Part shown: one piece after another, positions 26,735 through 50,614 of the stretch
How positions within the stretch are numbered: the first letter of the stretch is position 1
Layout: every line of letters begins with the position of its first letter
NCBI GenBank assembly: GCA_016841675.1
Contig: JAENYQ010000005.1
Coordinates: 1 to 64,000, forward strand
Direction of reading: 5' to 3'
DNA length: 64,000 bases
Source: Desulfotomaculum sp.
GTDB taxonomy: Bacteria; Bacillota; Desulfotomaculia; Desulfotomaculales; Desulfallaceae
Position numbers and translations under genes: made by a program
The notes under the pieces: model-generated
What the model saw: the letters and a program-made list of their open reading frames with translations, nothing else
What the model was told of the DNA's origin: nothing
The model's database searches: none

Positions 26735-26845
26735 CTCAGAGGCCAAATTGTTGAGTAGGTCAGAGGCCTTTCGACCTCCTTCCCCTCCAAGAACGGAGCG
26801 TGCGACTTTCACTGCACTCCGCTCACCGCTCAGACATTACCTGCT
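26735..26845 (-). mobile_element. Group II intron fragment (partial)
   Basis: Reverse complement reads GAGCGGAGTGCAGTGAAAGTCGCACGCTCCGTTCTTGGAGGGGAAGGAGGTCGAAAGGCCTCTGACCTACTCAAC, closely resembling the conserved bacterial group II intron segment; no RT ORF nearby. Confidence 0.5.
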
Positions 26846-39865: not shown

Positions 39866-42800
39866 GTGACGAGTACGTTTAGTTCCAGGCGCGTATGGAT
39901 AATGATTTTAATTATCGCAATTATTGCAACCATCACAACCATTACTACGATCGGTTTACATAATAACAAGCCGAGTATAAATAATGATAGTGCAGCTCCA
40001 AAAAATAATAATCAGTTAAATAAAGGAGAAGACTTAAATTTATATCTTGTTGAACTTGAAAAGAATCTCAATGGGAGTGAAGTATCCGAGATCAGGCAAA
40101 TAGTCAGATGGGCGGGGGAACTCCACAACTCGTTATTGCCCGCGCGGATGGAAGCGGGGCAGATTGAAGCGCTTGAAAAACTACCATTTGTTAAAAAAGT
40201 TTATATTTACCCGGTAGAACGGAAAGTCTCCGGGGAACTGCTCCTAACCCCATCTGGCGAAACCAATACGGGTAAGAGCGGTAAAACTGAGCCAATTGAA
40301 CTGTTGGAAGCCGTGGTTACCCTGGTAGACGAGAGTGATAAGCAAAACACGGTGCGGCTGGTTGAAAGTCTGGGTGGAACCGTCACATCCGGTGCCGGGG
40401 AGCCGGGGCGTTACCTGCGAATAAAAATTCCCCGGGAAGCACTGGTGCCATTAACAGCTTCGACCAATGTTTTATATATGGAGCAATATAACCAGCCGGA
40501 ACTGCTCAATGACCGGGTTAGGGATATTGTGGCCGCCAGGCCCCTGTCCATCAGTAGTTTTATCACGGATACCGCTTTAAACGGCAGGGGGCAAACCATC
40601 GGTCTGGCGGACAGTGGGCTGGACACCGGTTCTATGGGTAACCTGCACCCGGACCTGGAAAGCCCTCCGGGCTATAAGCCCAAGGTGATTATGCTCAAAT
40701 CATGGGCCGGTGTAGAAACCCCGGCGGACACTGTGGGCCACGGCACGCACATGGCCGGGACCATGGTGGGCAGCGGCCAGGCGTCCGGCGGCAACTACGC
40801 CGGGCTGGCCCCGGAAGCCAGCCTTTACTTCCAGGGTATTGTAGATGAAGAGGATAACCTGGCCCCGCCTCTGGACCTCGAGACTCTCTTGCAGCCTGCC
40901 TACGAGGCCGGCGTGCGTATTCATGTCAACGGCTGGGGCAGGAAAAGAAATACATACAATAGCTCGTCAGCTCAAATAGATAATTTTGTTTTTAATCACC
41001 CCGGCTTTCTGGCGGTTTTTGCAGCGGGAAATTCAGGATCCCAGGTGGGCAGTCTCACCTCCGAGGCCAACAGTAAAAATGCCCTTACCGTGGGGGCTTC
41101 TTTAAACCCGCGTCCCGTATTTGATAATGTCATCGGAGACACTACCTCGGTGGCCGGTTTCTCCAGCCGGGGTCCGGCGGAAGACGGGCGCATTAAACCC
41201 GAGCTGGTGGCCCCGGGCACCAACATAATTTCCGCGGCTTCTCAGGTGGTAAAAAATAGTCTGCCCGGTAGGCCGGAATACACTTCCATGCAGGGTACAA
41301 GCATGGCCTCGGCGGTAACTGGTAGTGCTGCCGCCCTATTGCGGCAGTACTTACAGGAAAACGTCGGTATCAAAGATCCTTCAGCGGCTCTATTGAAAGC
41401 GGCATTAATTAACGGTGCGCAGCGCCTGGAAGGAACGACCGAGGCGGTGGGCTTCGGCCTACTTGACATTGGTAGTACCGTTATAGCTTTAGAAAACCAG
41501 CTTTTTGATTTGGAAGACAACGCGGCAGGTATATCCGCCGGCGAGAGTATCACCCATGAGAAGATAGTTACCCACAGCGGGGCTCCCTTCAAGGCCACCC
41601 TGACCTGGACCGACCCGGCTGCCGTGCCGGGTTCCCGCTTAACCCTGGTTAACGACCTGGACCTGGAAGTAATTGCCCCGGACGGTGCCAAGTATTATGG
41701 CAACGATTTCGACTATCAAGGACTGCGCGACGGTCGTAATAACGTAGAACAGGTATATATCCCCGACCCCGAACCGGGGACCTATAAAATCATTGTCCGG
41801 GGTAAATCCATAATGGAGGATACTTCTCGCAGCCAGGGTATAACCCAGGATTATGCTCTAGTGTTCGGTCGTTCGCCGGCTCGGGACGTGGTTAGCGAAA
41901 ATACCGGAGATAACATTCTTTTGGCCGGAGGAGACCAGCTTGCCAAGCCCAAGCGTTTGGCCAGCATGGTGAATGATGAGCTCCGGCTGGGGGAAAAAGT
42001 TCCCCCGCTTGGCGCCGAGCTATACCTGACAGGTGCACCTGATGATCCCCAACAAGCATACGCAATAGTCCGCACCGAGAGGGTGAACGGTGCCAAGGCG
42101 CTGGAGATGAATAACACAACGGTGCTGGTACGCGTGAACTCCGAATACCGTGAAGGCGGGCATGCCATCGATAGCAGAGCCCGGGAACCCTTAATCCTCA
42201 ACGGTCGCCCCGTGGACAGCGGGCAAACAATTCCACCGGGAGTAAGCTTAAGCAGCTATGTAAACCCGCGTTCGCAAACTATTTGGCAAGCGGAAATAAC
42301 CAGCCGTGAAGCAAGTGGTATATATGCCTCCTATGACACGGAAAGCAGGCAAATAAAGCTGATAGACCATGAAATAGCGTACAGCCTGGCCGAGCAAGCT
42401 TCCGTTTCTTTTACCGACATTGTAATCGACGGCGACCCAGCCGAACTTCCTTTCGGCGCTTCCACGGACGCCGAGCTAGATAATCTCCTGCCGGGAATGC
42501 CGTTAAATATCGCTCTGGGTTCCGACGAAAAGGTATATAACCTGTCGGTAAAGCGATACATGGTCACGGGCAAGGTTACCGGACCAGAACCCGGGCAAGA
42601 AACCCTGGCCCTGTCGTCAGGCAGTGAGTATCGCATCATAAAGGGGCTCAAAATTACCCGAGACGGGGCGCCTGCCGGGTTGGAAGATATAAAAGAAGGC
42701 GATCTGGCTATGCTGGATTTAATTCCCGATTCCGCCCAAGCGTTGGGCCTGACCGTTTATTCAGATGTAATCCACGGCCGGGTGATTTACACCGAAAGTG

Positions 42801-44020
42801 ATACCCTGTACTTAATGGCAAATAATGAAGGGTTTGATATGTTGAGATTCCACCCGGAAATACGGGTGTTCAGATGGGGGATGTCCTCCGGTACTTCTAT
42901 TTTGAACCCGGGGCAGTGGGTGCGGGTCATTAGGGACCCGGTTTCCGGACAAGCTTGGCGGGTAGATATTGCCGATTACGCGGGTAAAACGGAAGCTGTT
43001 CTCGATTCTTTCTACTCAGGAACAAACATGGTCAAAACAGCGGATGGTGATGTATACCGGCTGAGTTCGGCTTCCAAAATCACAAAAAACCAAATCCCGG
43101 TGCCAGCCAAGGACCTGATATCCGGTGAACCGGTTACCATTACCTCCCTGTATAGCCCGGATGGCGACAAAATTGTAGTTGCCCTGGATGCCAAAACCCG
43201 CCGGGGAGTGGAACCTCCCGAACTTAAGGTAAGCTCTACACTGCCTTTCGAAGATTTTTCCCTGGTAACAGGTACTACTACGGTAACCCGCCTATATGCC
43301 TGGTACCGGGATGGCACCTTCGAAGAAATATCCGTGGGGGATGACGGGAGTTTTTATTACCCGGTCATGGCGGCAAAAGCGGGAAATATTCAGCTGGTGG
43401 CCGTGCACGATACATCGGGCGGAGTTGCCGGACTAAACTTAAACATCCCCAGGCCGGAAAAAAGCTTTCCCGACATTGAAGAACACTGGGCGGGAGTTGA
43501 CATCCGCCATCTGGTATCCCGAGGTATGTTAAGTGGATACCGGGATGGCAATTTCCAGCCGGACAAGACCATAACCCGCTTGGAATTCACCGTTATGTTG
43601 GCCCGGTTACTGGGAGCCGCCGGCTCCATAACGGAACCTCCGTACAAGGATGTGGATAAAATCCCCGACTGGGCGAAAAGCCCTGTGGCCCTGGCCCATC
43701 ACAGAGGTCTGGCACAGGGATACGAAGATAACACCTTCCGACCGGACGCCCTCATAACCAGGGAAGAGGCAGCATCCCTTCTGGTACGGGCTTACGATAT
43801 TTTGCAGGGTATCCAGCAGGACCCGCCCGGCGAAAGCCCGCTCTACGCGGACCAGGAGGCCATTTCGGACTGGGCCCGGGATAGCGTGCAAAAGGCCAGG
43901 CAGATGGGGATGTTCACAGGCAGATCCGAAAACCACTTCACCCCCAAAGCCAACATCACCCGGGCCGAAACCGCTGCCGCCCTAAACCGCCTCCTCTCAA
44001 CTCTTACGGATGAAGAATAA
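39866..44020 (+). CDS. Secreted/anchored S8 subtilisin-like protease with C-terminal SLH domains
   Basis: Catalytic triad GLADSGLDTG / GHGTHMAGT / MQGTSMASAVTGS; C-terminal SLH repeats DIEEHWAGVDIRHLVSRGMLSGYRDGNFQPDKTITRLEF and two more. Confidence 0.93.
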   Translation: MTSTFSSRRVWIMILIIAIIATITTITTIGLHNNKPSINNDSAAPKNNNQLNKGEDLNLYLVELEKNLNGSEVSEIRQIVRWAGELHNSLLPARMEAGQIEALEKLPFVKKVYIYPVERKVSGELLLTPSGETNTGKSGKTEPIELLEAVVTLVDESDKQNTVRLVESLGGTVTSGAGEPGRYLRIKIPREALVPLTASTNVLYMEQYNQPELLNDRVRDIVAARPLSISSFITDTALNGRGQTIGLADSGLDTGSMGNLHPDLESPPGYKPKVIMLKSWAGVETPADTVGHGTHMAGTMVGSGQASGGNYAGLAPEASLYFQGIVDEEDNLAPPLDLETLLQPAYEAGVRIHVNGWGRKRNTYNSSSAQIDNFVFNHPGFLAVFAAGNSGSQVGSLTSEANSKNALTVGASLNPRPVFDNVIGDTTSVAGFSSRGPAEDGRIKPELVAPGTNIISAASQVVKNSLPGRPEYTSMQGTSMASAVTGSAAALLRQYLQENVGIKDPSAALLKAALINGAQRLEGTTEAVGFGLLDIGSTVIALENQLFDLEDNAAGISAGESITHEKIVTHSGAPFKATLTWTDPAAVPGSRLTLVNDLDLEVIAPDGAKYYGNDFDYQGLRDGRNNVEQVYIPDPEPGTYKIIVRGKSIMEDTSRSQGITQDYALVFGRSPARDVVSENTGDNILLAGGDQLAKPKRLASMVNDELRLGEKVPPLGAELYLTGAPDDPQQAYAIVRTERVNGAKALEMNNTTVLVRVNSEYREGGHAIDSRAREPLILNGRPVDSGQTIPPGVSLSSYVNPRSQTIWQAEITSREASGIYASYDTESRQIKLIDHEIAYSLAEQASVSFTDIVIDGDPAELPFGASTDAELDNLLPGMPLNIALGSDEKVYNLSVKRYMVTGKVTGPEPGQETLALSSGSEYRIIKGLKITRDGAPAGLEDIKEGDLAMLDLIPDSAQALGLTVYSDVIHGRVIYTESDTLYLMANNEGFDMLRFHPEIRVFRWGMSSGTSILNPGQWVRVIRDPVSGQAWRVDIADYAGKTEAVLDSFYSGTNMVKTADGDVYRLSSASKITKNQIPVPAKDLISGEPVTITSLYSPDGDKIVVALDAKTRRGVEPPELKVSSTLPFEDFSLVTGTTTVTRLYAWYRDGTFEEISVGDDGSFYYPVMAAKAGNIQLVAVHDTSGGVAGLNLNIPRPEKSFPDIEEHWAGVDIRHLVSRGMLSGYRDGNFQPDKTITRLEFTVMLARLLGAAGSITEPPYKDVDKIPDWAKSPVALAHHRGLAQGYEDNTFRPDALITREEAASLLVRAYDILQGIQQDPPGESPLYADQEAISDWARDSVQKARQMGMFTGRSENHFTPKANITRAETAAALNRLLSTLTDEE

Positions 44021-44643: not shown

Positions 44644-45714
44644 TTAATTTTCCAGCAACAAAATTATCGTTTTCTTCTTGGCCTCTTGGTCCCAAGTCTT
44701 CAGCTGGGCCATGATGCCGGTTATTTTAACCTGCAGTTGCTGCCTCTCATGTACATCACCGGTAGCTTCAAACTGATCCCTCAATAACGACACCTGTTCA
44801 ACATTCTCATTATACTCGGCGGTAATATTATTTTTAGTATTATCCCTAACTACCACCGGCCCCAGCGCTGATAGATTTTCCAGTAGCACCCCGGCCCGGC
44901 TATTATCGACTACAATTTTCAGGCTTTCCTGGCTCCCGGTCTCGGTATTTTCCGAAGCAATAACCTCGTACCCGGCATTGGCCCCGTTAATGTAATCCAG
45001 CGCTTGGCTGTGCACCACCTTAAAATCTTCAACCTTCATTTGCACGAATGTGCGTTCAACAACCCGGTCTATATTAGTGTTCATCAGCTCTAATTCACCG
45101 GCATTAATTATATTTCCGCCACCATTATTTCCATTGTTCGAACTACCGGCAGGATTATCCCGGTTACCAGTTGTATCGCCCTGAAGCGGATTTGGCTGTG
45201 GATTATCCGTGGGCTTTGGCGTTTCCGTATTGGCCGGATCATTCTCGCCGGACTGCGCGCCCGGATCCTTAGCACCCGGGTCATCCAGCGGACTAGTGGT
45301 TTCCCCAACATTGTCGCCCGGATTATGAGTAGCGGTAATCGTGTGACTTGCCGGGTTATTATCAACTATATGCGGGGCTGTATTGATACCCCACTGAAAA
45401 TAACCTGTCGCCGCTCCTGCAGACACCAGCAAAAATGCTGCTGCGGCCATACCGCGCTTCCATTGAATAATAATCCTTTTAAAGCCAGTTTGCTGTTTAG
45501 GCAGTTGGGCCACCACAGCTTTTGCAAAGCCCGCCGGGGCTTTCATATCTTTGGTATTTTCCTGCAGCGCGGCTCCAACCGCTTTCCAGAAGGCCGCCTC
45601 TTGCCGGCAGGACTCGCAGTTAAAGAGATGATTTTCTATTTTATTGGCTTGGATAGCTTCTATTTTCCCATTAAGCCAGTCCGGTATCAGTTTTTTTACC
45701 TGCTCACAATTCAT
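44644..45714 (-). CDS. Anti-sigma factor with N-terminal zinc finger (zf-HC2), TM and long extracytoplasmic domain
   Basis: MNCEQVKKLIPDWLNGKIEAIQANKIENHLFNCESCRQEAAFW; overlaps the sigma gene end. Confidence 0.88.
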   Translation of the reverse strand: MNCEQVKKLIPDWLNGKIEAIQANKIENHLFNCESCRQEAAFWKAVGAALQENTKDMKAPAGFAKAVVAQLPKQQTGFKRIIIQWKRGMAAAAFLLVSAGAATGYFQWGINTAPHIVDNNPASHTITATHNPGDNVGETTSPLDDPGAKDPGAQSGENDPANTETPKPTDNPQPNPLQGDTTGNRDNPAGSSNNGNNGGGNIINAGELELMNTNIDRVVERTFVQMKVEDFKVVHSQALDYINGANAGYEVIASENTETGSQESLKIVVDNSRAGVLLENLSALGPVVVRDNTKNNITAEYNENVEQVSLLRDQFEATGDVHERQQLQVKITGIMAQLKTWDQEAKKKTIILLLEN

Positions 45715-46340
45715 CCCTTTTCACCTCCCCGGTGACTGTTATTAGACTTTTTTAAATAGGGAAGTCTACTGCCGTTTTTAGTGGCCAGCCTCGTTATTTC
45801 TTTTTTAAGAGTTAGACGCGCCCTGTTAATTCTCGACTTAATGGTCCCAAGGGAACAATCCAGCATAACAGCAATTTCATCATATGAATAACCCTGCATT
45901 TCCCTCAGTACTAAAACCGCCCTGTGTTCAGTGGATAACTCCCCGAGGGCCTCCCGAATCATATCCCGAAATTCCTTCTTTTCATAAGCCTCTTCCGGGC
46001 TTTCGGTATCCGAGACCACCATGCGGGGCATCTCGCCGTCTTGGGTTTGCACCGGATTATCTAAATAAACGTCGGGTTTCTTTTTGCGCTTCTCATTAAT
46101 TGAGAGGTTTACCGTAATTCGGTACAGCCAGGTGCCGAAATCTGCCTCGTTGCGAAAAGTCGGCAGAGAGCGGTAGGCTTTTATAAAAACATTTTGGGCC
46201 AAATCCTCGGCATCGGCGCGGTTGCCGGTAAGCTGGTAACTCATAGCATAAACCCTGTCCTGATACATGGTTATCAGCTGCTCGAAGGCCCTGGTATTGC
46301 CCTGTTGGGATTGTTTTACCAGAAGCTTTGCGCTGTCCAA
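45711..46340 (-). CDS. ECF RNA polymerase sigma factor (sigma-70 family, SigW-like)
   Basis: FEQLITMYQDRVYAMSYQLTGNRADAEDLAQNVFIKAYRSL...LSTEHRAVLVLREMQGYSYDEIAVMLDCSLGTIKSRINRAR. Confidence 0.96.
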   Translation of the reverse strand: MDSAKLLVKQSQQGNTRAFEQLITMYQDRVYAMSYQLTGNRADAEDLAQNVFIKAYRSLPTFRNEADFGTWLYRITVNLSINEKRKKKPDVYLDNPVQTQDGEMPRMVVSDTESPEEAYEKKEFRDMIREALGELSTEHRAVLVLREMQGYSYDEIAVMLDCSLGTIKSRINRARLTLKKEITRLATKNGSRLPYLKKSNNSHRGGEKG

Positions 46341-46379: not shown

Positions 46380-46408
46380 TTAGACACGCGTATGTACGAA
46401 AAAGTTCC
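46380..46408 (-). promoter_or_regulatory. ECF-type autoregulatory promoter GGAACTT-N16-GTCTAA
   Basis: Minus strand reads GGAACTTTTTCGTACATACGCGTGTCTAAGG, about 40 nt upstream of the sigma gene. Confidence 0.85.
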
Positions 46409-46719
46409 GGTGCTAGACCAATTATTTAAAAAGTTCATAGTCAGCAAAGATTGTTTGCTTCTAAAGATTTTTGCTTCTATAGATCATACTGAATAATATG
46501 CCGATGAAAATTAGTTAACTTAATTAATTACCTAATGAATAATTTACCGCAAATCGGATTATATTTCAAAGGGTTGCTGCTGCCATTCCGTCCTAAATTT
46601 GGTTTAAAGTCGAAAGTTTCCTAACAGGTTCTTTGTACTCCGACTATCATTATAACAGACGCCGGCACCACACCGGCATGGAACCAAGATGACAAGGGTG
46701 AAAATATTTTGCTACTCAT

Positions 46720-46748
46720 GGAACTTTTGGCGAATAACCCGTGTCTAA
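46720..46748 (+). promoter_or_regulatory. ECF-type promoter GGAACTT-N16-GTCTAA (P1)
   Basis: GGAACTTTTGGCGAATAACCCGTGTCTAAC. Confidence 0.8.
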
Positions 46749-46829
46749 CTAATCGAGTCCAAACATGGTGACATTGGGGCTGGCCCTTCGAATTAAGAAC
46801 TTTGAGTATGAACTTTAGATTTTTTTATT

Positions 46830-46858
46830 GGAACTTTTGGTGCCAATCATGTGTCTAA
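46830..46858 (+). promoter_or_regulatory. ECF-type promoter GGAACTT-N16-GTCTAA (P2)
   Basis: GGAACTTTTGGTGCCAATCATGTGTCTAAC, exactly 110 nt from P1. Confidence 0.8.
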
Positions 46859-47162
46859 CAAAACGAGTCCAAATCAAAGACATGCCAAATCAGTATAACT
46901 AAGGCAGCGCATCCAGCGCGAACAAGACCTGCCACACAATGAAATACATAGCACTATTGAATGATTATTAGAACAAAGGTATAATAACCCATATGGATTT
47001 TGAGTAGTTAATCACAAGTGAGCAGGCGGTAAAACCGCTTCTCTATAGTAGTAAGTTAATTAATTAATTGATACCTGTCCAAGGGGGGATGTGCAAGTAT
47101 AGCAAGGTTTTCATTTGAATCGGGCCGAAAGGCCAAAATAACATTTCAAGGAGGAATTTGAT

Positions 47163-49289
47163 TTGCGTAAAGCGCGTAACAAAAAGCTTTCACTTTTAAT
47201 GGCTCTCGTATTTATGTTCACCGTGGTTTTCCCGGTGGGGGCAGCATTTGCAGGTGATTATGCAACTTTCAATAGTGCCTATAAGTATGTTACAACCGGT
47301 AAGGATGTAACAGCTGGAACTGCAAGTGCGGTTTATAAGGACAACGGAACAGCTACCGAGTTTTTCTTTGAAGTAACTTTACCTGATGGCGTGGAGTATG
47401 CTAATAAACCAATTAATGACACTAGTAAACCAGCGGATTTTGGAAACTACATTACAGCCACCAGCTTGGGAACAGTTACATTCGAAAGTTCTAATCCTGA
47501 CAGTTTAAAAGTTAAAGCTACTAATTGGAGTACAGGCAGTAAAATAACTTTTAACTTTAATACTGCTCAAACAGCACTGAACATTGATAAAGACATTACA
47601 GGCAATGTTGATGTGCAATTAGAAGCAGTAGGCGTTAACTCTAGTGATAATATCGTATGGGCAGAAAATGATGATCTTACTATCGCGAAGGCTGCCGGAG
47701 ATGATATTACAATTAAAGCCGGTGCCCTTAAGAAGGTTTCAGCAGGCGGGAATAAAGCAGTTGCCAAGATTACTGTGGAGGAATCCCAAGCCGGTTCAAT
47801 TGATGATACTGGATTAGCGAAAGTTAAATTCATAATCGAAACTGACGATGTGGAATTCAGCGGCTCTGGAACTACTCCTACTGCTACTCCTTCAGGGCAG
47901 GATGGTATAGGTTTAGGAACGATAACAAGAGCACAAGATTCAGATAATAATTACACTATAGTTGAAGCTGCTATAAACACTAGTTCTACCACATTCCCGG
48001 GTACAATATCATTTACTCCCAAACTGGACATTTCTCCGAATGTGGATGATGATATTGAAATTACAGTGGAAGTCTACAATGCTGCCGGTAATGTAGTCGA
48101 AGACAAGACAGTTACCGTAGCCACTGTCGGCGATGTCTCCATAGAAGTTGAAGACCTGGAAGATAACGATAACGTGGTATATGCCGGTCAAACAAAAGAG
48201 CTGGATGTTACATTTACCCTGACCACCACTGACGGCAGCGAATTTGCAGAAAATGATGTTCTCACCTTCGAATTGAGCGCTGGTAAATTTGATTCTGTTC
48301 CGACAGTCACTAGCGCTGGTAGTGGTACTGTAAAACGTTATGATGATAACAAGGCGTTTTACTATACTTGCGGCAGTGGGGAAGACGATGAGTTGGATAT
48401 TAAAGATATAAAGGTCTCATTGAAAAACGACGCTGAACCTGGTGACATAACCTTAACCATCGGCGGCGATTATGGCGACCTTGAGGAAATTGTAATTGCC
48501 ACAGCGGCCAAGCCTTACACCATAACTGCTGATAAGCCTTCCATTATGGCAGAAGCTCTAAGTCAGGAAGCTGGTGAAATCACCATTACCGAGGCTAACG
48601 GTGGAGCCATGAAAACGACTGAATTTGTGTATGTTGAACTTCCGTCTGGTGTTCAACTGTCTGGTAAACCCAAGATTGAAGTAACTGAAGGCGGCGGCGA
48701 TGCAAAAATCGCCAAATATGACGATGACTATTTTGTAATTGAAGTTACTAAGAAAAGCAGCAGCAGCAAGCCGACCACATTCCGTGTCTACAACGTCAAG
48801 TACGATACTGGCAAACTAGCTTTAGCCGGTGATGTAGAACTGAAGATCTATGGTGATGTGGCAAACACAACCCCTGGCGCCGATAAGTATGATTTCAAAG
48901 ACGACAGCATGATGACCTCAGTAGTTAACGCCACCGTTGTTGACGGCAATGTTGTTACCGCTTCCTACACACTCGGTGACGCAGGCGTAGCTATCCAGAA
49001 CGGTCGTACACTGGTACAGGTTAACACCCTGTGCGAAACCCTCGGCCTGCAAAAGAGTTGGGATGCAACCAACAAGATTGCCTACTTCATTAAGTCGGGC
49101 ACTGTTGTAGCCTTCCCGATTGGCCAGAATCAAATCATAATCAACGGTAACACTTTACCGGTTGACCAGGGCGGCGTAATCATCGATGGCTACACCTACG
49201 CAACTTTGCGTGGTATTCAAGCAGCCTTTGGTGGGGACCTGGACTGGGATAATGAAACCAAGACAGCTACATTTAGCTTCAATAAATAG
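47163..49289 (+). CDS. Large secreted surface protein with C-terminal copper-amine-oxidase-N-like domain
   Basis: Signal peptide KKLSLLMALVFMFTVVFPVGAAFA; C-terminal NGRTLVQVNTLCETLGLQKSWDATNKIAYFIKSGTVVAFPIGQNQIIINGNTLPVDQGGVIIDGYTYATLRGIQAAFG. Confidence 0.85.
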   Translation: MRKARNKKLSLLMALVFMFTVVFPVGAAFAGDYATFNSAYKYVTTGKDVTAGTASAVYKDNGTATEFFFEVTLPDGVEYANKPINDTSKPADFGNYITATSLGTVTFESSNPDSLKVKATNWSTGSKITFNFNTAQTALNIDKDITGNVDVQLEAVGVNSSDNIVWAENDDLTIAKAAGDDITIKAGALKKVSAGGNKAVAKITVEESQAGSIDDTGLAKVKFIIETDDVEFSGSGTTPTATPSGQDGIGLGTITRAQDSDNNYTIVEAAINTSSTTFPGTISFTPKLDISPNVDDDIEITVEVYNAAGNVVEDKTVTVATVGDVSIEVEDLEDNDNVVYAGQTKELDVTFTLTTTDGSEFAENDVLTFELSAGKFDSVPTVTSAGSGTVKRYDDNKAFYYTCGSGEDDELDIKDIKVSLKNDAEPGDITLTIGGDYGDLEEIVIATAAKPYTITADKPSIMAEALSQEAGEITITEANGGAMKTTEFVYVELPSGVQLSGKPKIEVTEGGGDAKIAKYDDDYFVIEVTKKSSSSKPTTFRVYNVKYDTGKLALAGDVELKIYGDVANTTPGADKYDFKDDSMMTSVVNATVVDGNVVTASYTLGDAGVAIQNGRTLVQVNTLCETLGLQKSWDATNKIAYFIKSGTVVAFPIGQNQIIINGNTLPVDQGGVIIDGYTYATLRGIQAAFGGDLDWDNETKTATFSFNK

Positions 49290-49327
49290 TTAATTGTAAG
49301 CAAGTAATTGTATAACTAAGTAGTTTA

Positions 49328-49362
49328 AGAACCCGGGTTCCAGGTGAACCCGGGTTCTTTAT
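49328..49362. terminator. Hairpin AAGAACCCGGGTTC caggt GAACCCGGGTTCTTT
   Basis: Perfect 14-bp stem and T-rich tail. Confidence 0.85.
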
Positions 49363-49462
49363 ACATCCAGCGCTAACACGGGTATTGACTTACCATTTAG
49401 GCCACGTTATACTCAAAATGAAAATAGTTAACTAATTTAATTAATTAAGGAGTGGAAACACC

Positions 49463-50614
49463 TTGCGCCGGTTAATGATTATTACTTTGCTTACATTTTT
49501 AATAGCATTGGGATGCGGCATAACTGCATTTGCAGCCAGTGATGAACAATCTGTTACTGAGCCTGAAAACGGGCTTAGTTTGGAAGAGGTCATTGAACAG
49601 GCACTAATAAAAAGCACGGCTCTAAAACAGGCTGAAAAGGATGTCGACCGAGCGTGGGAAGCACGTGATGCTGCAAGAGCAGGGAATATTGCTTCTCTTA
49701 AGAGATTGAATCAGAATGATGATATTTCTACAGGTGTTTTGTATACAAGCACCTTTGGAGGAGACGAAGACGGTTATTTTAGATTTTTAAGCGCCAACGG
49801 CCAGTGGTCCATAAACAAGAAGATGCTGGACCTGACCGAAGACGCAACCGTATTGCAAGCTAAAGGCAATTACCACGATGTTATTAAAAAGCAACATAAA
49901 CTGGAGATAACCGAGGTGTCTCTCCAAAAAGCAGAAGATGATTTTCGTATAGCAACAGCCAAGTCAAGGGTCGGTATGGCAACTAATCTGGAAGTGCAGG
50001 CGGCCAATAGTTTGTTGGAAGCTGAAAAAAGTGCTTTGGAACAGGCCCAGGCCGAGCTTGAAAATGCTTACCGCAATTTCAATAAGCTAATTGGTTTAAA
50101 GCCGGAAGAACGGCCAAACCTAATCACACCAATTGAGTTTGAGAAGCTGGATGTTCCTTCTCTGGAAAACGTTGTTTCGGTAGTCCTTTCTTCTGATAAT
50201 AATCCCTATCTATGGACCAAAAAAGAGGGATATGAAATCAGTAAATACACATGGACTTTCAGCGAATCCCGCGCAGCCGGGTTAATTGACAAAGAAAAGG
50301 CTTCCCTTACTTACCAGGAAGCCAGGGAAGATACTCGCAACAAGGTATACGAGTTGTATGACACACTAAAGACTCTGGAAGCTGCTTATGAGTCGGCTCT
50401 AATGGGATTGACGGCAGCTGAAGAAAGCCTGCGGGTAACTCAAGCGATGTATGAAGCCGGCCTGGTTACTAAAAATGATGTTTTGGATAAGGAAGTAGCT
50501 TTAAATAGGGCCCAAGACGGCTTATTAAATGTAAAAAGCTCATATGCCCTGACCACAGAAACCTTTGAGCATCCATGGCTGGCCTTTGTGGGTGGCAGCG
50601 GTGCCAGCTTTTAA
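49463..50614 (+). CDS. TolC-family-like exported coiled-coil protein
   Basis: Signal peptide; LSLEEVIEQALIKSTALKQAEKDVDRAWEARDAARAG...EVQAANSLLEAEKSALEQAQAELENAYRNFNKLIGL, ALMGLTAAEESLRVTQAMYEAGLVTKNDVLDKEVALNRAQ. Confidence 0.8.
   Translation: MRRLMIITLLTFLIALGCGITAFAASDEQSVTEPENGLSLEEVIEQALIKSTALKQAEKDVDRAWEARDAARAGNIASLKRLNQNDDISTGVLYTSTFGGDEDGYFRFLSANGQWSINKKMLDLTEDATVLQAKGNYHDVIKKQHKLEITEVSLQKAEDDFRIATAKSRVGMATNLEVQAANSLLEAEKSALEQAQAELENAYRNFNKLIGLKPEERPNLITPIEFEKLDVPSLENVVSVVLSSDNNPYLWTKKEGYEISKYTWTFSESRAAGLIDKEKASLTYQEAREDTRNKVYELYDTLKTLEAAYESALMGLTAAEESLRVTQAMYEAGLVTKNDVLDKEVALNRAQDGLLNVKSSYALTTETFEHPWLAFVGGSGASF

Follow-up and report, generated by a model that had tools for sequence, protein, structure and literature searches.

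Comparison of one intergenic region and its flanking genes across related genomes points to a self-activating ECF sigma/anti-sigma switch that is, with a probability of about 0.8, dedicated to one main target, the divergently transcribed gene of a surface protein. The region lies within the window, i.e., the whole 64-kb stretch of Desulfotomaculum sp. DNA analyzed here. As a kind of system, an autoregulated ECF/anti-sigma pair with an RpoE-like promoter is already known. Its unusual features are a near-consensus regulon that comprises just two transcription units in this genome, its tie to a probable coat protein and its recurrence across the phylum, which points to an old circuit.

Promoter-like sites and their recurrence

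The initial annotation had described one GGAACTT-N16-GTCTAA element facing the sigma gene and two facing the other way, and all three are found where it placed them; in each, GGAACTT is separated from GTCTAA by 16 nt. The minus-strand element (46380-46408; GGAACTTTTTCGTACATACGCGTGTCTAA), a predicted autoregulatory ECF promoter, lies 39 nt before the TTG start codon of the sigma gene, close to the 40 nt first estimated. On the plus strand, P1 (46720-46748) and P2 (46830-46858), the first and second predicted ECF promoters toward the surface-protein gene, were located by motif match; in this genome they are exactly 110 nt apart, and each is followed by an identical CGAGTCCAAA (46754-46763 and 46864-46873, plus strand), as had been noticed. 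Transcripts probably start near these repeats. The conserved part extends beyond the earlier description, in that GGAACTTTT-N12-GTGTCTAA is common to all three sites. Three matches compare with 0.01 expected in the window, and none of 100 shuffles reached three. The genome search that had been proposed was run over 3,844,584 bases (3.84 Mb) with 17 fixed positions and the reversed pattern as control; the three sites of the window are the only matches at 0, 1 or 2 mismatches. A looser pattern, restricted to GGAAC and TGTCTAA, adds one match to the genome, and that match has no T-run. A larger regulon in this genome was considered and rejected, because sites with 3 mismatches occur at near the control level (18 versus 13 for the reversed pattern).

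The motif is present in 15 of 16 genomes of the family, which includes Desulfoscipio, Desulfotruncus and Sporotomaculum, and the reversed control in none, although shared ancestry inflates such family counts. The exception, G004, is also the genome that lacks a sigma ortholog, its best match (2.6e-52) being at the level of a paralog. Typically, the sigma gene is preceded by one site at a distance of about 40 nt, and the divergent surface-protein gene by one or two, as a tandem pair in 12 genomes and as one site in the others. A fixed or helically phased distance between P1 and P2 was rejected given the range of 91-154 nt (91, 108-111, 146 or 154 nt); a spacing of exactly 110 nt and the perfect CGAGTCCAAA repeat are peculiar to this genome rather than family-wide. 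Information content reaches 1.6-1.8 bits per position in the hexamers, compared to 0.25-0.54 in the spacer and 0.4-0.5 in the upstream flank. Conservation of the hexamers next to a drifting spacer indicates that selection acts on the -35/-10 pair. Above-background conservation (0.55-0.84 bits) also extends over the first 20 nt after the sites, with 0.80 bits per position at 1-20 nt after P1 versus 0.31 further downstream, and 0.55 versus 0.24 for P2. Since this conservation coincides with the expected transcript start, it helps to explain why P1 and P2 have CGAGTCCAAA in common.

Beyond the family, the strict motif occurs in 41 of 113 genomes of the order and its reversed control in none. Among 84 order sites examined, 39 are positioned 38-79 nt before a sigma ortholog and 40 precede the gene of a secreted surface protein; three lie at or close to a DUF6847-type gene (Pfam confirms two, and the third has its site sequence in common with one of these), and two are unassigned. 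Across the phylum, 28 of 399 genomes contain the motif, again with a reversed control of 0. Twenty of these phylum loci were examined: the site leads to a surface protein with a signal peptide in 15, to the sigma gene in one and to a protein that is DUF6847-like by sequence likeness in another, and three have no assignment. A sigma homolog at E <= 1.3e-54 is present in 20 of 20 motif-bearing phylum genomes tested. Moorella sp. UBA4076 harbors the complete set, comprising sigma factor, anti-sigma factor (zf-HC2 plus DUF4349), both sites, surface gene and TolC-like gene; its autoregulatory site reads TTGTCTAA. The autoregulation proposed in the initial annotation thus gains support from comparison, through site position, hexamers, co-occurrence with the ortholog and a control of 0. 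Two variations on the arrangement were also seen. The motif lies upstream of DUF6847-type genes in several families (L179:2695-3258, L184:2221-2706, L209), making the encoded proteins possible extra members of the regulon, and at one locus (L167, G047:C190) two paralogous surface proteins are encoded in tandem near the sigma gene, each with its own ECF-type site.

Sigma factor and anti-sigma factor

The sigma gene (45711-46340, minus strand, TTG start at 46340) encodes 209 aa with Pfam matches to Sigma70_r2 (5.2e-19) and Sigma70_r4_2 (1.1e-16). A protein of about 200 aa that has regions 2 and 4 alone, and no further domains, is built as an ECF sigma factor. Its closest solved relatives are B. 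subtilis SigW and RpoE/AlgU-type sigma factors; overall it is nearest to SigW, and its region 4 is RpoE/AlgU-like, which fits a GGAACTT -35. The likeness of this element to the E. coli sigma-E consensus, seen at the outset, is real and has its counterpart in the protein. The recognition helix GT(V/I)(K/R)SRxxR(A/G)R is almost invariant among the sigma orthologs. Scores fall below the curated cut-offs of the RpoE equivalog (NCBIfam TIGR02939; 145.9 versus 236.15 bits) and of the SigW equivalog (NCBIfam PRK09641/TIGR02948; 172.4 versus 209 and 164 versus 243.1 bits). The same genome encodes a second ECF sigma factor (G000:C132) that is 44% identical to that of the window and whose -35 recognition helix, DCSLGTVKSRISRAR, differs little.

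Overlapping the sigma gene is a gene for an anti-sigma factor of 356 aa (44644-45714, minus strand; zf-HC2, 5e-08), and a zf-HC2 anti-sigma gene in this overlapping position is kept in relatives. The protein is laid out as a zinc-binding anti-sigma domain, a transmembrane segment read directly from the sequence, a disordered linker and a DUF4349-like outer domain. Residues C3, H29, C33 and C36 are invariant across 34 orthologs. An H-x3-C-x2-C motif, a helical N-terminal domain and a membrane anchor, as read from sequence, place the protein among class I zinc-binding anti-sigma factors. The AF2 model is confident at both ends, with a helical N-terminus and a well-modelled outer domain. The DUF4349 (PF14257) match in the window is weak (12.7 bits versus a gathering score of 27.7); the score is 31.6 bits in one relative (L108), and matches at E <= 0.1 were obtained for 26 of the 34 orthologs, the best at 3.1e-07. 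A fold search with the outer domain yielded no solved relative at E < 0.001. Adjoining the anti-sigma gene is a large subtilase with SLH domains (39866-44020, plus strand). Most family members keep it at this position, and it may take part in anti-sigma control as a protease or partner.

Transcription units and competing explanations

Further promoter-like elements surround the ECF-type sites. Upstream of the autoregulatory site, a sigma-A-type promoter, TTGAAA-N17-TAAATT (46541-46569, minus strand), faces the sigma gene. The corresponding element, with a TTTG..-type -35, a spacer of exactly 17 nt and a TAAATT-type -10, is found in 14 of 17 genomes, and is likely to be the basal promoter of the sigma gene. 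Toward the surface gene, a candidate sigma-A promoter identified by sequence match, P3 (TTGAAT-N17-TATAAT; 46957-46985, plus strand), may add basal expression; a P3-equivalent TATAAT is present in 8 of 19 genomes and is weak in any single one. Because sigma-A-type promoters face in both directions, transcription without the sigma factor would still be compatible with the ECF model.

Comparison across genomes also delineates, in the surface-protein mRNA, a conserved 5' leader of about 155 nt (47012-47165, plus strand), composed of a GCGG/CCGC hairpin, an AGTTAA/TTAACT pair, a GGGGGGATGTG block, a GGCC hairpin and a ribosome site. There is one strong copy per genome, in nearly all cases at the surface gene. 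A riboswitch or known RNA was rejected as an identity for the leader, because Rfam returned no match up to E = 1, the fold is barely better than that of shuffles (z -1.28) and covariation is not clearly above controls. Elsewhere in the window, Rfam matched a group II intron (26750-26826, minus strand, 62.6 bits).

The surface-protein gene itself (47163-49289, plus strand) encodes 708 aa with a signal peptide and a C-terminal Cu_amine_oxidN1 domain (Pfam, 8.4e-20); this is the sole domain detected, SLH domains being absent in the Pfam search. The same C-terminal domain is present in 26 of 31 motif-linked or orthologous surface proteins. In Syntrophomonas wolfei, no protein of the membrane fraction is more abundant than Swol_0133, for which an S-layer identity is predicted; it has in common with the surface protein a size of about 78 kDa and a C-terminal domain of the copper amine oxidase N-terminal type (PMC3582634). 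Given the match in size and domain layout, and the same domain in those 26 proteins, the surface protein is likely the S-layer-type coat protein of the cell. Downstream follow the gene of a TolC-family protein (49463-50614, plus strand), which is conserved beside the surface gene in relatives, and that of a second Cu_amine_oxidN1 protein, an order maintained in many of them. The model of the TolC-family protein consists of helices throughout, lacks beta-barrel strands and resembles TolC structures (best E 3.2e-11). This lineage is usually considered to have no outer membrane, and the protein may span the coat instead.

Which protein acts at the ECF-type sites? Conservation and spacing of the sites in front of two divergent genes would likewise be compatible with a DNA-binding regulator, yet the sites are not palindromic, are oriented toward the gene, keep a constant 16-nt gap within the -35/-10 pair next to a drifting spacer, precede the sigma start by about 40 nt in 39 loci and carry the -35 of E. 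coli sigma-E (PMC2893595); that they serve as binding sites of another regulator rather than as promoters is thus extremely improbable. If they are promoters, the main uncertainty concerns the sigma factor that fires them. The paralog G000:C132 could also use them, in view of its almost identical recognition helix, and its relatives are found in nearly all related genomes. The distribution of the motif favours the ortholog instead: within the order, it occurs in 28 of 41 genomes with a close sigma ortholog and in none of the 19 that have paralog-level matches or none (Fisher p 1.7e-7, at an ortholog cut-off of E < 1e-55 chosen after the data had been seen and with counts compiled by hand). The strict motif is absent from 13 genomes with a close ortholog, some of which, where examined, have a near variant. 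Moreover, no ECF-type site precedes the paralog gene in either of two genomes examined. That the paralog is the main user, or that both sigma factors share the sites, accordingly seems to us quite improbable.

Assuming firing by the cognate sigma factor, its contribution to the surface gene and the extent of the transcript have to be considered. P3 could be the main promoter of the surface gene, with the ECF promoters adding no more than a signal-dependent boost. The 0.6 kb upstream of Moth_2343, a copper amine oxidase-like gene of Moorella thermoacetica and a putative counterpart of the surface gene, serves as a constitutive promoter (PMC10823632), and sigma-A promoters may well supply a large share of transcription. 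However, P3 is absent from 11 of 19 genomes in which the ECF sites are kept, and most P3 matches are near chance by themselves; we consider such a secondary role of the ECF promoters unlikely, while giving it real weight. The tandem promoters had been read as firing toward the surface-protein locus. Their direction is upheld by the comparison, and the conserved gene order would suit a single operon of the surface protein, the TolC-like protein and the second Cu_amine_oxidN1 protein. Between the surface and TolC-like genes, however, a strong terminator-type hairpin (49327-49359, plus strand, -24.2 kcal/mol) recurs in 15 of 15 genomes inspected, and the TolC-like gene has a sigma-A-type promoter of its own (TTGACT-N17-TATACT; 49385-49413, plus strand), near-consensus in 13 of 15. 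The hairpin tail in this genome is poor in T, and some read-through is possible. Overall, we regard the three-gene operon as improbable; because of the conserved hairpin and the separate promoter, the ECF promoters probably serve just the surface gene.

How would a sigma/anti-sigma switch dedicated to the surface gene operate? We envision that the sigma-A-type promoter supplies basal amounts of sigma and anti-sigma factor, and that the membrane-anchored anti-sigma factor holds its partner through the zinc-binding N-terminal domain. The DUF4349-like domain outside the membrane would be the likely sensor, and a signal received there would release the sigma factor. Together with RNA polymerase, the released protein would then start transcription at GGAACTTTT-N12-GTGTCTAA. 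Initiation from 46408-46380 would amplify sigma and anti-sigma factor, and initiation from P1 and P2 would raise the level of a surface-protein mRNA with its long conserved leader, probably ending at the hairpin after the surface gene.

Known systems and implications

With E. coli RpoE and P. aeruginosa AlgU, the system shares an RpoE-type promoter, i.e., a GGAACTT -35, a TCTAA-type -10 and 16-nt spacing, as well as a very similar -35 recognition helix. RpoE/AlgU systems are autoregulated, as predicted for the circuit here; the anti-sigma factor of RpoE is RseA, in place of the zinc-finger type found in the window. The RpoE regulon comprises up to 89 transcription units (PMC2893595), compared to two units with near-consensus sites in this genome. 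By overall sequence, the best match of the sigma factor is B. subtilis SigW. Its anti-sigma factor, RsiW, contains zinc, and the anti-sigma factor described here has a zf-HC2 domain. The SigW -35, in contrast, is ATTGAAACCTTT (PMC8103513), unlike the one at these sites. Further differences from the SigW system are the DUF4349-like outer domain of the anti-sigma factor and the very few near-consensus sites. FecI-type ECFs resemble the proposed circuit in that one sigma factor mainly serves one adjacent gene or operon, and differ from it in that FecI activation runs through an outer-membrane receptor. FecI-like ECFs are also exceptions to positive autoregulation (PMC8103513), whereas autoregulation is predicted here.

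Little has been described of how anaerobic Bacillota with protein coats control coat synthesis, and titles and abstracts, among which subscription journals are thinly covered, contained no description of an S-layer gene with a dedicated ECF sigma factor. Conceivably, a dedicated, phylum-wide ECF pathway sets the amount of coat protein, with the DUF4349-like domain sensing the surface layer and thereby providing feedback control; we hold this view tentatively, at somewhat less than even odds. A sequence search is enough to locate the predicted promoter in dozens of genomes, those of Moorella, for which genetic tools exist, among them. With near-consensus sites in this genome serving the sigma gene and one surface-protein gene only, the system offers a clean handle on coat control. 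If the proposed circuit is true, the "constitutive" promoter part used in Moorella may be sigma-dependent, which would be relevant to strain engineering.
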